A DNA stretch of 39,837 nucleotides, from contig NZ_NKUB01000022.1 of the NCBI RefSeq assembly GCF_003207895.1, forward strand, positions 1 to 39,837, read 5' to 3'. This DNA comes from Komagataeibacter swingsii. GTDB taxonomy: Bacteria; Pseudomonadota; Alphaproteobacteria; Acetobacterales; Acetobacteraceae. The notes beneath the pieces are model-generated. The model was given only the letters and a program-made list of their open reading frames with translations, did no database searches and was not told the DNA's origin. A program made the position numbers and the translations under genes. The first letter of the stretch is position 1. Each line of letters starts with the position of its first letter. Positions 31,681 through 37,320 of this stretch are shown here, one piece after another.

Positions 31681-31791
31681 TATATAAATTTGGGCAGACA
31701 TACCAACTGTCGCACGAACGACAGGATGCCCGGAGGTTGGAGACATGTGCCGCCCTGCCCCAATGTGCGCAGGGCCGGCACCCAAGAGGAG
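31681..31791 (+). promoter_or_regulatory. Structured leader of citrate synthase
   Basis: TATATAAATT at 31681-31690 is a possible -10 region. Downstream, CTGTCG and CGACAG form a six-base inverted repeat with a six-base loop (about 31707-31724). A stronger hairpin has arms 31747-31758 and 31769-31781 (GTGCCGCCCTGC with GCAGGGCCGGCAC, one bulge). It ends two bases before the AAGAGGAG ribosome site (31784-31791). The placement suggests control of translation or mRNA stability. No known riboswitch class was recognised. Confidence 0.4.
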
Positions 31792-31799
31792 TGTTGTAG

Positions 31800-33098
31800 A
31801 TGAGCGAGTCCGGAAAAAGCGCCACAATCTCGCTGAACGGCAAGGATGTTGCCCTGCCGGTACTGTCAGGCACGCTGGGGCCGGATGTCATCGACATCCG
31901 CAAGCTGCCCGCGCAGGCCGGGGTATTCACCTATGATCCCGGTTATGGCGAAACCGCTTCATGCTCCAGCAAGATCACGTTCATTGATGGTGAAAAGGGC
32001 ATCCTGCTGCACCGGGGCTATCCCATCGCGCAGCTGGCCGAACAGGCGACGTTCATGGAAGTGGCCTACCTGCTGCTGAACGGCGAACTGCCGGACAAGG
32101 CAGCGTATGACGGGTTTGTGAACGCCATCAAGCACCACACCCTGCTGCACGAACAGATCCGCAATTTCTTCAACGGTTTCCGTCGTGACGCCCACCCCAT
32201 GGCCATCCTGTGCGGCACGGTGGGGGCGCTGTCCTCCTTCTATCATGAAGGGCTGGATGTCTCGAACGCGACGACGCGCTACCAGTCGGCCCTGCGCATC
32301 ATCGCCAAGATCCCGACCATTGCGGCATGGGCGTACAAATACACGCAGGGCGAGACCTTCATCTATCCGCGCAACGACCTGTCCTATGCGGAAAACTTCC
32401 TGTCCATGATGTTCGCCATGCCCAGCGAGCCGTACAAGATCAACCCCGTCCTGGCGCGCGCCATGGACCGTATCCTGATCCTGCACGCCGACCATGAACA
32501 GAATGCGTCCACATCCACCGTGCGGCTGGCCGGCTCCACCGGGGCCAATCCGTTTGCCTGCATTTCCGCCGGTATCGCGGCCCTATGGGGGCCTGCCCAT
32601 GGCGGCGCCAACGAAGCCGTGCTGAAAATGCTGGCTGAAATCGGGCACAAGGACAACATCCCCGAATTCATCGCCAAGGTGAAGGACAAGAACAGCGGCG
32701 TGCGCCTGATGGGCTTTGGCCACCGGGTGTACAAGAACTTCGACCCGCGCGCGAAGATCATGCAGGCGACCTGCCATGAGGTGCTGGGCGAACTGGGGAT
32801 CAAGGACGACCCGCTGCTGGACCTTGCGATCGAACTGGAAAAGATCGCCATCCACGACGAATATTTCGTCAAGCGCAGCCTGTACCCGAATGTCGATTTC
32901 TATTCCGGCATCATCCTCAAGGCCATGGGCATTCCCACCAGCATGTTCACCGTGCTGTTCGCGGTCGCCCGCACCACCGGCTGGATCAGCCAGTGGAAGG
33001 AAATGATCGAGGAACCGGGCCAGCGCATCGGCCGCCCCCGCCAGCTTTACACCGGGTCACCGGAACGCGACTTCGTGCCGTTCGACAAGCGGGGTTAA
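31800..33098 (+). CDS. gltA: Citrate synthase (AarA type)
   Basis: A 432-residue type II (large, hexameric type) citrate synthase. The catalytic residues are visible: [14 protein letters not shown] (His229 and His232), GPAHGGANE (His267) and [15 protein letters not shown] (His308), each three residues off the E. coli GltA numbering. It condenses acetyl-CoA and oxaloacetate, the entry to the citric acid cycle. In Acetobacter the orthologue is aarA, needed for acetate resistance, and aarC is nearby here. AAGAGGAG ends eight bases before the ATG. A long hairpin follows the stop. Upstream leader structure suggests extra regulation. Confidence 0.96.
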
Positions 33099-33106
33099 AA
33101 AAAATC

Positions 33107-33136
33107 TATGCCAGGCAGCTATCTCTGCCTGGCATA
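33107..33136 (+). terminator. Hairpin terminator after citrate synthase
   Basis: TATGCCAGGCAG (33107-33118) pairs perfectly with CTGCCTGGCATA (33125-33136) around CTATCT. Eight A residues precede it, and AT-rich sequence (ATGATTTAATTTT) follows. It closes the citrate synthase transcript and marks the edge of the AT-rich islet. Confidence 0.75.
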
Positions 33137-33146
33137 ATGATTTAAT

Positions 33147-33175
33147 TTTAAAAATTCAATGAGTTAGGCTAATAT
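33147..33175 (+). promoter_or_regulatory. Candidate promoter of the DUF2075 gene
   Basis: TTTAAA (33147-33152) and TAATAT (33170-33175) are separated by 17 bases, each matching four of six sigma-70 consensus positions, 35 bases before the ATG. AT-rich context makes chance matches likely, so this is tentative. Confidence 0.35.
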
Positions 33176-33209
33176 TGCCCCGGCACACTGTTTAAGTCAC
33201 CATGCGATC

Positions 33210-35150
33210 ATGGACCGTGCATATTTATCAATCGAAGCATCAAATGTTAAATTTTCGGATAATAGCTATTTATTCGGCTTATTAGCCCAGAAGCTTCCCT
33301 TCGCTGTTGAACCAACGCAAAGAGCTGCCTGGGATTACCAAATTAAACATTTACGGGAATTGGCAGAACAGCTTCCCGGTGCTCATTTCTTTATGGAATT
33401 TCTCATCCCACGAATGGGACGACGGGTTGATCTCGTTATCCTGTTTAAAGGGATAATTTATGTAATCGAATATAAGGTTGGAGCTTCTCAATTCGATCGA
33501 TCTAGCTTGGAACAGGTTTACGGTTACGCCTTAGATCTGAAACATTTTCATGAAACCAGTCACAGTCAACGAATCGTGCCGATTCTTGTCGCAACAAAAG
33601 CAAAGGAATCGCATGAACCACACGTACATTGGGATGCCGACGGTCTTGCTAAACCGTTAAAAGTTACACCAAACCTATTATCTGCCGTAGTGAAGCACAT
33701 AGCACTTGATATAAATGCCTTACCTTTCCCTGCCGACAAATGGATTAAAGGCCGTTACAAACCAACCCCAACCATCGTTGAAGCAGCCCAAGCGCTTTAT
33801 CAAGGCCACGATGTTAAAGAAATCTCACGGTCAGAATCCGGGGTTGAGAATTTAACGCATACCGCAGATTACGTGGCTGAGGCCATTGAGAACGCCAAAC
33901 ACACACATCATAAAATTATATGCTTTATCACCGGCGTCCCTGGTTCAGGTAAAACGCTTGCTGGTCTTAATATAGCCACATCTCGACAACGTGCACATAG
34001 TGATGAGCACGCCGTTTTCCTGTCTGGAAATGGTCCTCTTGTTGAGGTTCTGCGTGAAGCACTAGCACTTGATGCCGTCACCCAAGCAGCCTCCAAAGGT
34101 CACTCATCAAGCAAGGTGGAAGAAAGACGACGCGCAAGTGCATTTATTCAAAATATCCATCATTTCCGTGACGAAGCCCTTACGACAGATCAACCTCCCG
34201 TCGAAAAAGTTGTTGTATTTGACGAAGCACAACGTGCATGGAACGTTGAACAAACATCTAAATTTATGCAGCAAAAGAAAGGACAACATGAATTTTCCAT
34301 GTCAGAGCCTGAATTTTTGCTTAGCGTAATGGATCGTCATACCGATTGGTGCGCTATTATCTGCCTTGTTGGAAACGGCCAAGAAATTAACACCGGTGAA
34401 GCTGGCATCGAAGAATGGTTACGTGCGCTACAACGCTTTTTTCCCCATTGGCAGGCACATCTACCAGAAACTTTGACGCATTCTTGCTCAATTTCAAACG
34501 AAGTGTTGGCTCCCAGTCTTCATTTAGCCACCTCTATTCGTTCATTTCGTGCAGAGAGACTTTCTGATTTCGTCGGATATGTGCTGAAAGGCGATTCAGA
34601 GAATGCCCAAAAAACCAAGGAAACACTGCTGCATTATCCATTGCTTATTACACGTGACTTACCAAAAGCGAGACACTGGCTGCGTAACAAACGACGCGGC
34701 AACGAACGTGCTGGGCTTTTAGCTTCGTCAAACGCAAGCCGCCTTAAACCTTGTGGTATTTTTGTTAAATCCCAAATTGAACCGGCAAAATGGTTTCTGG
34801 CGTCACCCAATGATGTGCGATCTTCAGATGCGTTAGAGGATGCGGCAACAGAATTCGACGTACAAGGATTGGAATTGGATTGGGCTTGTCTGTGTTGGGA
34901 TGCCAATTTACGTCAGGATACAAAATGGGAAACATGGCGCTTCGTTGGAACACACTGGAGTCAAATCCGTGATCCAATGCGCCAAGCCTATCTTATCAAT
35001 GCTTATCGCGTGTTATTAACGCGGGCACGACAAGGCCTCGTCATATTTGTCCCACATGGCGATATGCATGATTTCACACGCTCCCCCCTTATATACGACA
35101 AAATTTACAACTTTTTGCTGACTTGTGGATTTCAGGTGCTGGAAACCTGA
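33210..35150 (+). CDS. PD-(D/E)XK nuclease-like / SF1-type DUF2075 helicase fusion
   Basis: A 646-residue protein. Residues about 50-120 look like a restriction-type nuclease fold: an RRVDLV strand (Asp74) followed by IEYKVG (Glu87, Lys89), the classic D...ExK spacing. The rest matches the DUF2075 (Schlafen-like) helicase core: Walker A GVPGSGKT (242-249), Walker B VVVFDEAQRAW (Asp338), VGNGQEIN (387-394), VQGLELD (551-557) and VLLTRAR (to about 607). All helicase motifs are intact. The coding sequence is AT-rich (about 45% GC in lines I counted, against about 65% around it) and its codon use differs, which points to horizontal acquisition. It stands alone with its own terminator context. A role in nucleic-acid restriction or anti-phage defence is inference; DNA repair is the alternative. 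Confidence 0.85.
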   Translation: MDRAYLSIEASNVKFSDNSYLFGLLAQKLPFAVEPTQRAAWDYQIKHLRELAEQLPGAHFFMEFLIPRMGRRVDLVILFKGIIYVIEYKVGASQFDRSSLEQVYGYALDLKHFHETSHSQRIVPILVATKAKESHEPHVHWDADGLAKPLKVTPNLLSAVVKHIALDINALPFPADKWIKGRYKPTPTIVEAAQALYQGHDVKEISRSESGVENLTHTADYVAEAIENAKHTHHKIICFITGVPGSGKTLAGLNIATSRQRAHSDEHAVFLSGNGPLVEVLREALALDAVTQAASKGHSSSKVEERRRASAFIQNIHHFRDEALTTDQPPVEKVVVFDEAQRAWNVEQTSKFMQQKKGQHEFSMSEPEFLLSVMDRHTDWCAIICLVGNGQEINTGEAGIEEWLRALQRFFPHWQAHLPETLTHSCSISNEVLAPSLHLATSIRSFRAERLSDFVGYVLKGDSENAQKTKETLLHYPLLITRDLPKARHWLRNKRRGNERAGLLASSNASRLKPCGIFVKSQIEPAKWFLASPNDVRSSDALEDAATEFDVQGLELDWACLCWDANLRQDTKWETWRFVGTHWSQIRDPMRQAYLINAYRVLLTRARQGLVIFVPHGDMHDFTRSPLIYDKIYNFLLTCGFQVLET

Positions 35151-35173
35151 ATGTCCCCCTAATCACATATGAC

Positions 35174-35210
35174 AAAGGAACAGACTGCTTATGCAGTCCA
35201 TCCCTCCTTT
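35174..35210. terminator. Weak interrupted hairpin between convergent genes
   Basis: GACTGC (35183-35188) pairs with GCAGTC (35193-35198), and the outer AAAGGA (35174-35179) pairs with TCCTTT (35205-35210). It lies between the stop codons of the DUF2075 gene and the minus-strand small gene. It could act on both transcripts, but T tracts are poor. Confidence 0.4.
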
Positions 35211-35234
35211 ATAATGCTCATGTCCGGAACGGGA

Positions 35235-35474
35235 TCAGTCACATTCGCAGCCATTCGTGGGGCCGGGGCGTTTTTGGATCACGTGATGGTCGATCCATTC
35301 CGACACCAGGCGCCGTGCCTCATTCAACGAGGATTCGGGATGGTGGATACGGTACAGGGTGGTGCAGGCGTGGAAAGCCGACACATCGCTGGTCCCTACG
35401 CCACGCAGTTCCTGATAGGCGGTGATTACGGCACGCTCGCACTTGCGAGAGATGCGACTGTTTTCAACAGACAC
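35235..35474 (-). CDS. Small hypothetical protein, probably iron-regulated
   Basis: A 79-residue frame on the minus strand, starting at a GTG at 35474. It begins MSVENSRISRKCERAVITAY, continues through RLVSEWIDHH and ends NGCECD. Codon use is like the GC-rich core (many C- and G-ending codons), unlike the adjacent AT-rich gene. Predicted content is mostly helical and soluble, with three or four cysteines and several histidines; no signal peptide or membrane segment is present. I do not recognise the family. A well-formed promoter and a Fur box lie directly upstream, so iron repression is likely and the product may act in iron acquisition or sparing. An antisense frame at 35169-35495 has no comparable support. 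Confidence 0.6.
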   Translation of the reverse strand: MSVENSRISRKCERAVITAYQELRGVGTSDVSAFHACTTLYRIHHPESSLNEARRLVSEWIDHHVIQKRPGPTNGCECD

Positions 35475-35492
35475 GATGCGATGACCTATTGG

Positions 35493-35507
35493 TGAGAATG
35501 ATTATCA
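35493..35507 (-). promoter_or_regulatory. Fur box
   Basis: TGAGAATGATTATCA matches the 7-1-7 Fur consensus TGATAATNATTATCA at all but one informative position. It lies 18 bases before the GTG of the minus-strand small gene and just after its predicted -10 box, so bound Fur would block transcription start under iron-replete conditions. Confidence 0.65.
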
Positions 35508-35515
35508 GTATTGGG

Positions 35516-35544
35516 ATATTAGATCGAATACCCCCATGGGGCAA
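35516..35544 (-). promoter_or_regulatory. Sigma-70 type promoter of the small iron-regulated gene
   Basis: On the minus strand TTGCCC (35539-35544) and TAATAT (35516-35521) are separated by exactly 17 bases. The start point would fall within or next to the Fur box at 35493-35507. The consistent arrangement of promoter, operator and gene supports each part. Confidence 0.55.
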
Positions 35545-35716
35545 GGTACGCATGGCCTCACACTCCGCTGATCGGGTCACGTTATGTTTCCGATGTGGCC
35601 TTTTTTCGGCAATTATGCCCGCAATCCGCGCAGACAGATGGATTTTCACATCTGTTGCGGTTAATCGTCTGTGCTGTCATTGACGACACCACATATCATT
35701 TGGCCGGAGATAGGGT

Positions 35717-36478
35717 ATGCACGACGCCACGGGGAACGGGGCCGGACTTTCAACAGGCTCCACGGCATGGGACCGCGACGCGGCACTGATGACCGCGCGC
35801 CTTCTGCTGGAAATCAAGGCCGTCAATTTCCGCCCCGATGAACCTTATACCCTGACATCCGGCTGGAAATCCCCGGTCTATATCGACTGTCGCCGCATCA
35901 TCTTCTTCCCGCGCGCGCGCCAGAAGATCATGGAACTGGCGGTGGAAAAGATCGGTCGCCACGTGGGGTACGAAAGCATTGACGCCGTGGTGGGCGGCGA
36001 GACGGCGGGCATTCCCTTCGCCGCATGGATTGCCGACCGCATGATGGCGCCCATGGCCTATGTGCGCAAGAAGCCCAAGGGCTTTGGCCGCAATGCGCAG
36101 ATCGAGGGCGACGTGCCCGAAGGCATGCGCACCCTGCTGGTGGAAGACCTGACCACCGATGGGTCGTCCAAGGTGCAGTTCGCCAACGCGCTGCGCAAGG
36201 CCGGCGCGATCGTGGACCATACCTTTGTCGTGTTCTTCTATGGCGTGTTCCCCGGCGCCTACCGCACGCTGGCCGACATGGATATCAGCCTGCATGCGCT
36301 GTGTACGTGGTGGGATGTGCTGGAAGCCTGCGCGGGCAAGCCCTACTTTTCGGAAAAGGATGCCGCCGAAGTCCGTCGCTTCCTTGAAGACCCCTGTGCA
36401 TGGTCGGCCAAACATGGCGGCGTGGGCAGCGCCGAGGAAGCGCTGGCGCTGAAGGCCAGGCGCGACGCCGGGGCCTGA
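35717..36478 (+). CDS. pyrE: Orotate phosphoribosyltransferase
   Basis: A 253-residue enzyme that joins orotate and PRPP to give OMP in pyrimidine biosynthesis. The N-terminal FTLTSG-type motif is YTLTSGWKSPVYIDCRR. A GGETAGIPFAAWIAD loop follows, and PMAYVRKKPKGFGRNAQIEG is the flexible catalytic loop. The PRPP motif is LLVEDLTTDGSS. GGAGA at 35706-35710 precedes the ATG by six bases. It is slightly longer than E. coli PyrE (213 residues) through N- and C-terminal extensions. Codon use and GC return to the core pattern, marking the end of the AT-rich islet. murI follows after 14 bases. Confidence 0.95.
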   Translation: MHDATGNGAGLSTGSTAWDRDAALMTARLLLEIKAVNFRPDEPYTLTSGWKSPVYIDCRRIIFFPRARQKIMELAVEKIGRHVGYESIDAVVGGETAGIPFAAWIADRMMAPMAYVRKKPKGFGRNAQIEGDVPEGMRTLLVEDLTTDGSSKVQFANALRKAGAIVDHTFVVFFYGVFPGAYRTLADMDISLHALCTWWDVLEACAGKPYFSEKDAAEVRRFLEDPCAWSAKHGGVGSAEEALALKARRDAGA

Positions 36479-36492
36479 TCCCGGACAGGTCG

Positions 36493-37320
36493 ATGGCGCG
36501 CATCCTTGCCTTTGATTCCGGCATCGGGGGGTTGGGGATCGTGGCCCGCATCCGCGATCTCCTGCCGGGGGTTGCGGTCGATTACCTGGCCGATACCGCC
36601 GTCTTTCCCTATGGCGAGCAGCCCGACGCGGCGCTGCGACACCGTATCGTCACCCTGCTGGGCCAGGCCATTGGCCGCCTCGAACCCGATGCGGTGGTGG
36701 TCGCGTGCAATACCGCCAGCACGCTGGCGCTGGACAGCCTGCGCGCGGCATATGACGTGCCCTTCGTGGGCTGCGTACCCCCCATAAAATGGGCGGCGGA
36801 CCAGACAGGCACCGGCACGATCGGCCTGCTGGCCACCCGCGCCACGGTGCGTCGGCCCTATCTGCATGATCTCCGCACACGCTTCGCCCCTGACTGCACC
36901 CTGCTGGCCTATGGCGCACGCGGTCTGGCCGACATGGCGGAAGCCGCGTTCCGGGGCAGCCCCCCTGACCGCCAGCACCTGAAAGCCGAGCTTGACGGCC
37001 TGTTTGGCCAGCCGGGCGGGAACCGGATTGACGTGGTCGGGATTGGCTGCACGCATTACACCTTCCTGCTGGACGCCATGCGTGCAACCGGCCCCGCCCA
37101 TGTCACATGGCTGGACCCGGCCCCCGCCGTCGCCCGGCAGGCCGCGCGCATTCTGGCCGGGTGCCGCACGGCTGCCGATCACCGGCCGCCCATGGCCGAA
37201 CGGGTCTGCTTTACCGCCATGCCACCTGACCTGCCCGCCCTGCTGCCCGGCCTGCGCAGGCTGGGTTACGCGGCAGACGCGCCGTGCCTGTTCAGCGAAG
37301 ACATGACGACCCATTCCTGA
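36493..37320 (+). CDS. murI: Glutamate racemase
   Basis: A 275-residue cofactor-independent racemase making D-glutamate for peptidoglycan. Motifs in order: FDSGIGGLGIV (phosphate-binding-type first loop), YLADTAVFPYGEQPD, VVACNTASTLAL (first catalytic cysteine) and GIGCTHYTFLLDAM (second catalytic cysteine). I use the ATG at 36493, 14 bases after pyrE; the longer frame from 36400 runs inside pyrE. The ribosome site (CAGGTCG) is weak, which fits coupling to pyrE. Length is normal. Downstream lie repeat and IS fragments, then the convergent ispB. Confidence 0.94.
   Translation: MARILAFDSGIGGLGIVARIRDLLPGVAVDYLADTAVFPYGEQPDAALRHRIVTLLGQAIGRLEPDAVVVACNTASTLALDSLRAAYDVPFVGCVPPIKWAADQTGTGTIGLLATRATVRRPYLHDLRTRFAPDCTLLAYGARGLADMAEAAFRGSPPDRQHLKAELDGLFGQPGGNRIDVVGIGCTHYTFLLDAMRATGPAHVTWLDPAPAVARQAARILAGCRTAADHRPPMAERVCFTAMPPDLPALLPGLRRLGYAADAPCLFSEDMTTHS

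Follow-up and report, generated by a model that had tools for sequence, protein, structure and literature searches.

A conserved nuclease-helicase fusion of the PDC-S41 family in Komagataeibacter swingsii, a candidate single-protein defence gene

We analysed a stretch of 39,837 nucleotides from Komagataeibacter swingsii (Acetobacteraceae; assembly GCF_003207895.1, contig NZ_NKUB01000022.1, positions 1 to 39,837), hereafter the window. An AT-rich interval between gltA and a gene that we take to be pyrE carries a gene whose 646-residue product joins an N-terminal nuclease domain to a superfamily 1 (SF1) helicase motor. Its sequence motifs, their invariance among relatives and two confident structural models confirm that this product is a real, intact and conserved nuclease-helicase fusion. 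It is not new as a defence candidate, since PADLOC lists the family as PDC-S41. With moderate confidence, we consider the protein to be an ATP-driven DNA nuclease of this family, most likely directed against phages or plasmids. An earlier reading of the letters alone (the sequence-only reading) had proposed such a lone defence gene in a foreign islet, and the results given below bear on its claims.

Domain architecture and conservation

The motor belongs to the SLFN-g3 (DUF2075) family and contains every motor motif named by the sequence-only reading. Besides GVPGSGKT, DEAQ and TRAR (Table 1), these include VGNGQE at residues 387-392 and VQGLELD at residues 551-557, all within a protein that Pfam matches at E 5.9e-80. 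The PADLOC model PDC-S41 (PDLC05014) covers almost the whole chain, with 892 bits and residues 1-644 aligned on positions 1-653 of the 657 in the profile. The NCBIfam search returned a chance match alone (E 0.12), and the sequence search of the PDB gave motor fragments plus an implausible ion-channel match.

Relatives were collected in one scan of genome contigs, which found 340, and 80 loci were kept as type I. When the window protein was aligned with those of 56 of these loci (49-70% identity to it), residues E63, D74, E87, K89, Q102 and Y106 of the nuclease domain were unchanged in 57/57 proteins from bacteria and archaea, as were the listed residues of helicase motifs I, II, III, V and VI. 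The nuclease and helicase residues are likewise unchanged in 81/81 proteins of a wider type I set, which left out six of the 80 loci (stops or at most 600 residues). Such invariance shows that the PD-(D/E)XK-like site assigned earlier to D74 and E87-x-K89 was rightly placed. Moreover, Q102 and Y106 form a QxxxY downstream of ExK, a motif of RecB/Cas4-type PD-(D/E)XK nucleases; alongside D-ExK, it therefore makes the nuclease site one of the RecB/Cas4 kind.

Profile matches to the nuclease domain are weak (Cas4 of PADLOC, E 0.0027; NERD of Pfam, E 0.16) and, taken alone, offer slight support. The AlphaFold2 model of residues 1-208 is confident (pLDDT 90, pTM 0.86), with a helix at 35-54, strands at 59-66, 71-79 and 82-89 and a helix at 97-113. 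The sequence-only reading had suggested comparing this region with restriction-nuclease folds. In Foldseek, Cdn1 is the sole match below E 0.001, followed by McrBC chains, Can2 and R.BspD6I at E 0.003-0.005, all of which we take to be PD-(D/E)XK nucleases; TM-scores are modest (0.3-0.4) and unrelated proteins occur among the lower ranks. The predicted fold, with its D...ExK site on an alpha-beta core, thus places the N-terminal domain in the PD-(D/E)XK superfamily. The whole chain was also modelled confidently (pLDDT 87, pTM 0.82). Its first Foldseek match is human SLFN11 (E 2e-10, TM 0.33), and SLFN14, RecBCD chain D, Upf1 and Dda are found as well, with low TM-scores of about 0.3.

The host genome contains one copy of a PDC-S41-type gene. 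It also carries a second SLFN-g3 helicase gene (L168; C16:63014-64057), whose 442-residue product has the helicase domain without a nuclease.

Distribution of relatives and sister clade

Many of the 80 type I loci come from sphingomonads, at about 69% identity, and others, from Legionella to a Lokiarchaeota metagenome-assembled genome, are about 50% identical; records titled Lokiarchaeota and Thaumarchaeota are both represented. The matched stretch is 619-670 residues long in 76/80 loci. In the gene tree, the window copy and that of G002, a genome of another species of the genus, belong to a clade of 22 members (support 1.0), most of them from sphingomonads, which includes copies from Samsonia and Azonexus and therefore fits horizontal spread. 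The Samsonia copy had no DNA-level match in E. coli genomes (DNA search only). The distribution is patchy: in Novosphingobium, the genus of locus L016, 7/79 genomes match at E 1e-100, i.e. 6/78 besides that of L016 itself, with one of the six partial, and the gene occurs in 1/14 control genomes. Nine viral contigs carry the gene, five of them at only 28-29% identity. A 69% identical copy lies at the extreme edge of an IMG/VR viral contig (L159, 1-1941).

The PDC-S41 model does not match type I alone, as it also detects a resident sister clade. At E 1e-100, this profile hidden Markov model (HMM) finds 103/200 genomes of the host family, with one match each, in 59/102 genera; three positive genomes, the most seen for any genus, are found in each of 17 genera. 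Apart from those of the window and G213, these matches (101 copies) score 466-784 bits. We took 19 of these lower-scoring copies, chosen by hand, with their flanks (L200-L217, L219). They form one clade (type II; support 1.0) with about 35-45% identity, keep D74, E87 and K89 in 19/19 cases, Y106 in 18/19 and Q102 in 13/19, and have a native GC content of 0.69-0.77. With open reading frames (ORFs) called by codon-position GC, the same FemAB-like gene lies near 11/19 of them and not near the other eight; RidA-like, NDUFA12-like, exo/endonuclease and PPK2 genes also recur. Their neighbouring ORFs, up to three per side and from another caller than for type I, match 5 PADLOC models in 114 ORFs, i.e. 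no defence enrichment. PADLOC may thus label a resident sister gene of the host family as a defence candidate.

Residence at the gltA-pyrE site

Within the genus, gltA and pyrE are found in 19/19 genomes (the host's own included) and the gene is intact in two, the window and G002, whose proteins share 88% identity; G005 gave a weak 5' match. The gltA-pyrE gap measures 2.6 kb in the window and G002, 1133 bp in G005, 1312 bp in G015, and 1398 bp in G007; in the remaining 14 genomes it spans 630-823 bp. Bases 1-420 of the G002 gene were aligned with the other intervals and scored against 30 shuffles. G005 retains bases 1-253 (177/243 identical; score 86 versus a shuffle maximum of 28) and G015 retains bases 1-51 (41/51 identical; 52 versus 27). 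By these alignments, the gene has decayed in place in both genomes. Decay in G007 is probable only, because its score (25) fails to beat the shuffles (maximum 26), although BLAST extends the upstream segment up to the gene start and the interval has DNA in common with those of G005 and G015 (144/181 and 82/97 identical). Among the other 14 genomes, G010 is slightly above its shuffles (22 versus 20) and G006 ties with them (21), both of which we take as noise. The patchiness that the sequence-only reading had proposed to look for is therefore observed at this site, with the gene intact in 2/19 genomes, decayed in two or three and lacking in the rest.

Between the window and G002, synonymous divergence (dS) of the gene is 0.71 (0.711), within the range of six flanking genes (0.39-0.86), and nonsynonymous divergence (dN) is 0.068. 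The resulting dN/dS of about 0.1 points to purifying selection between the two intact copies. In the flank tree, intact and decayed copies are scattered over three clades. The segment upstream of the gene resembles that of G002 (score 69 versus 21 shuffled) and shows no resemblance in the four gene-less sister genomes compared. For G005 and G015, pairwise alignment of this segment gives nothing, and BLAST gives 66-68% from the gltA end into the gene. Such a pattern would fit vertical loss or flank-driven transfer inside the genus equally well. Since a second species also carries the gene at this site, and since the gene has a flank-like dS and is decayed in relatives, the cassette appears to be an old resident, inherited and repeatedly lost, or one exchanged within the genus. 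A recently inserted islet was rejected on these same grounds; hence, of the foreign islet proposed earlier, the foreign composition stands and the recent insertion does not. The type I gene of Asticcacaulis, with its shared context, would be a second case of settled residence.

The composition is indeed much lower in GC than both sides, as had been claimed: 0.45-0.46 per 500 bp over 33001-35000 and 0.52-0.56 over 35001-36000, versus 0.61-0.69 in the flanks (3 kb before, 2 kb after). GC at third codon positions (GC3) is 0.37 in the gene, 0.82 in gltA and 0.80 in pyrE. GC3 stays at 0.37 in the window copy and 0.33 in that of G002 (L141) despite a dS of 0.7 and flanks at about 0.8, which suggests little amelioration over a long residence. 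Low GC as a trait of the family was considered and holds only weakly: the gene is below its flank in 54/78 loci, with a mean difference of -0.03, and the drop of about 0.2 in the window copy is therefore unusual.

A probable role in defence and its alternatives

Type I relatives lie near known defence genes, a point that the sequence-only reading had proposed to check. For all 80 loci, the two closest ORFs to either side of the gene, when at least 100 residues long (251 ORFs), were searched with PADLOC at E 1e-15. The two halves of this near set match 84 models (125 ORFs) and 52 models (126 ORFs), in lists that may overlap; among the matches listed are GajA, GajB, Avs3a, PD-T4-4 and parts of Hachiman and Mokosh, and Pfam detects McrBC among the near neighbours. 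The outermost ORFs, more than 6 kb from the gene at loci with long flanks, match 108 models in 125 ORFs (the first 125 of 156). They are as model-rich, and the near set is therefore not richer than its own surroundings. This outermost set was first meant as background and, after its result was seen, was replaced by arbitrary 10-kb stretches. These were chosen in 20 of 24 located genomes, on the contig that carries the gene and at a distance from it of about 70 kb or more. These control stretches match 7 PADLOC models in 125 ORFs.

Several points weigh against a role in defence. In PADLOC, each gene is covered by many near-duplicate models, so that model counts overstate defence genes, and the control covers 20 genomes versus 80 loci in the near set; the counts are therefore rough, though the contrast is still large. 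No neighbour is constant, the commonest cluster being found in 6/80 loci, and the window copy stands alone amid genes that, by reading, look metabolic. Four Asticcacaulis loci (L066, L082, L088, L090) have the type I gene in a common chromosomal context. Only 4/72,556 plasmid records carry the gene, at 29-48% identity, and 1/50,697 phage records, at 44%. Furthermore, the literature searched yielded no assay of PDC-S41, a name that is absent from it. The main counter-evidence is the sister clade, which has the same D-ExK residues and is resident without defence enrichment; architecture alone therefore does not imply defence. An obligate partner gene was also considered and rejected, as no neighbour cluster exceeds the figure given above. 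The earlier claim that the gene has no obvious partner thus agrees with both the window and the 80 loci.

In a defence role, the SF1 motor would load on a DNA end, a gap or a single-stranded intermediate and then translocate, and the N-terminal RecB/Cas4/McrC-type PD-(D/E)XK domain would cut the strand fed to it by the motor. This cutting would destroy or block replicating phage or plasmid DNA. In this scheme, for which the mechanism of DruE serves as a model only, we infer that DNA is the substrate, that motor and nuclease are coupled and that the role is in defence.

The protein could instead be a nuclease-helicase for genome maintenance, acting on stalled forks, gaps or ends, which would be beneficial without being essential, frequently lost and at times regained, its PDC-S41 label then resulting from island hitchhiking. 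We regard this as somewhat unlikely, but as the main and a serious rival. In its favour, the sister clade is found, with one match each, in roughly one half of the 200 genomes of the family, reaches three positives in each of 17 genera, keeps D74, E87 and K89 in 19/19 sampled copies, has native GC, is near the FemAB-like gene in 11/19 cases and has 5 PADLOC models in 114 neighbouring ORFs. The long residence of the window copy, with its dS of 0.71 versus 0.39-0.86, also favours maintenance. However, the sister clade shares only about 35-45% identity, and its function may have diverged. The type I clade itself is patchy with defence-rich neighbourhoods, and a gene missing from 14/19 genomes of the genus and decayed in two or three more would be unusual for maintenance. 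For the mobile type I clade, defence is thus likelier than genome maintenance. The motor also recalls RNA-directed, Schlafen-like immune proteins, in which case it would bind RNA and the nuclease would cut RNA, leading to abortive infection. The helicase is indeed in the Schlafen group 3 family of Pfam and SLFN11 is the best full-chain match (E 2e-10), but the TM-score with it is 0.33 and the top matches of the N-terminal domain are PD-(D/E)XK nucleases and not a Schlafen core; we hold this reading to be highly improbable. A passive remnant of a mobile element, without any function today, would agree with the low GC and with the decay that has left 5' pieces of the gene at this site in G005, G015 and probably G007, but is scarcely credible for a frame intact in two species, with a dS of 0.71, a dN of 0.068 and intact motifs.

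Defence and maintenance might also be two lives of one enzyme. PDC-S41 would then comprise an ancient chromosomal form processing forks or ends (the sister clade) and a mobile single-protein defence form, arising from or beside it and spread among bacteria and archaea, whose Schlafen group 3 motor would make it a prokaryotic counterpart of the replication block by SLFN11, with a different nuclease. We put this forward as a speculation that is rather unlikely.

If the defence reading is true, PDC-S41 would be a defence in which a single protein, with no partner, destroys DNA by an ATP-driven mechanism, and it would range from alphaproteobacteria as far as records titled Lokiarchaeota and Thaumarchaeota. 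Otherwise, part of what PADLOC counts as PDC-S41 may be a resident gene, present in roughly half of the genomes of one family, and such counts may overstate defence content. Since the mobile and resident sister clades have the same D-ExK residues, they should allow experimental separation of defence and housekeeping roles.

Features of the locus

Table 1. Features of the PDC-S41 locus, in window coordinates
Feature	Coordinates	Strand	Evidence and details
Nuclease-helicase gene, PDC-S41 family	33210..35150	+	ORF of 646 residues; PADLOC PDC-S41, 892 bits over residues 1-644
N-terminal PD-(D/E)XK nuclease domain (predicted), residues ~1-170 (end set by eye)	33210..33719	+	Predicted model, Foldseek, weak HMM matches
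Nuclease site codons	33396..33527	+	E63 33396-33398, D74 33429-33431, E87 33468-33470, K89 33474-33476, Q102 33513-33515, Y106 33525-33527
SF1 (SLFN-g3 / DUF2075) helicase domain, residues 237-615	33918..35054	+	Pfam PF09848, E 5.9e-80; Foldseek
Walker A GVPGSGKT, residues 242-249	33933..33956	+	G242, G245, G247, K248 invariant
Walker B DEAQ, residues 338-341	34221..34232	+	Invariant
Motif V QGLELD, residues 552-557	34863..34880	+	Q552, G553, L554, E555, D557 invariant
Motif VI TRAR, residues 604-607	35019..35030	+	T604, R605, R607 invariant
AT-rich interval, gltA stop to small minus-strand ORF	33099..35235	none	GC profile and genus comparison
Hairpin after gltA, 12-bp perfect arms	33106..33137	none	Inverted-repeat search; terminator-like score on minus strand only
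Small conserved ORF, 79 residues, C-terminal GCECD	35235..35474	-	Sequence; flank, outside cassette

The genes are ordered gltA, hairpin, nuclease-helicase gene, small minus-strand ORF and pyrE. Pfam identifies gltA as a citrate synthase gene and finds a phosphoribosyltransferase domain in the downstream flank gene, which is presumably pyrE. The placement between two core metabolic genes thus holds on the gltA side, and on the pyrE side the small ORF intervenes. Similarly, the AT-rich islet exists but does not start at 33137: the interval begins at about 33099, just after the gltA stop. Lying at the upstream edge of the cassette, the hairpin would be the terminator of gltA.

The small ORF has no Pfam match at E 0.01; from its GCECD ending, we take it to resemble bacterioferritin-associated [2Fe-2S] ferredoxin. 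A Fur-box-like sequence was seen by eye at its start. Where G002, G005 and G011 have an ATG or GTG codon, the window has ATA, with an in-frame GTG shortly downstream. No tRNA was detected in the window, nor any Rfam match over 31700-36600 or insertion-end repeat in 33000-35700. Judged by reading, no likely partner gene is found among the window ORFs of at least 80 residues, and the remaining ORFs listed look metabolic.

Comparison with known systems

The closest entry is PADLOC PDC-S41 itself, a single-gene putative defence candidate, with which the window gene shares the full-length match, the single-gene organization and relatives in defence-rich regions; it differs in that the window copy is alone among genes that look metabolic. 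PDCs are described in PMC12988326 as unvalidated candidates that come from a guilt-by-embedding study. For two other PDCs, a study in a native host gave no evidence of activity (PMC12409345), and the PDC label should therefore be trusted with caution. In the literature searched, DUF2075 is named in five papers, none of which concerns defence judging by title, and COG3410 in one.

Among Schlafens, SLFN5 binds ATP with no hydrolysis observed, and replication stalling by SLFN11 apparently requires its helicase domain, according to PMC8789055. The window protein has an SF1 motor related to that of SLFN11 and the group III Schlafens, SLFN11 being its best whole-chain match in the PDB, but it differs from them by a PD-(D/E)XK domain instead of the Schlafen core, and no Pfam match to the latter (AlbA_2-like) was found in it at E up to 1. 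It has the same SF1 motor as the SLFN-g3/DUF2075 helicases (PF09848); the 442-residue PF09848 copy of the host differs from it by lacking a nuclease.

A PD-(D/E)XK site, QxxxY and an SF1 motor are features of RecBCD, AddAB and Cas4 nucleases. The window protein likewise has this site with a downstream QxxxY and an SF1 motor, and RecBCD chain D is among its top matches; it differs in being a single polypeptide with the nuclease at its N-terminus and no RecB or RecC partners. Nhi and Gabija also set an ATP motor plus a nuclease against phage DNA, and the Nhi HMM matches the window protein around Walker A only (E 1e-4). Finally, DruE of Druantia is described, in a preprint (PMC13192584), as a helicase-nuclease effector acting on intermediates that contain single-stranded DNA; its helicase is of superfamily 2 according to the same source, whereas the motor of the window protein is of SF1.

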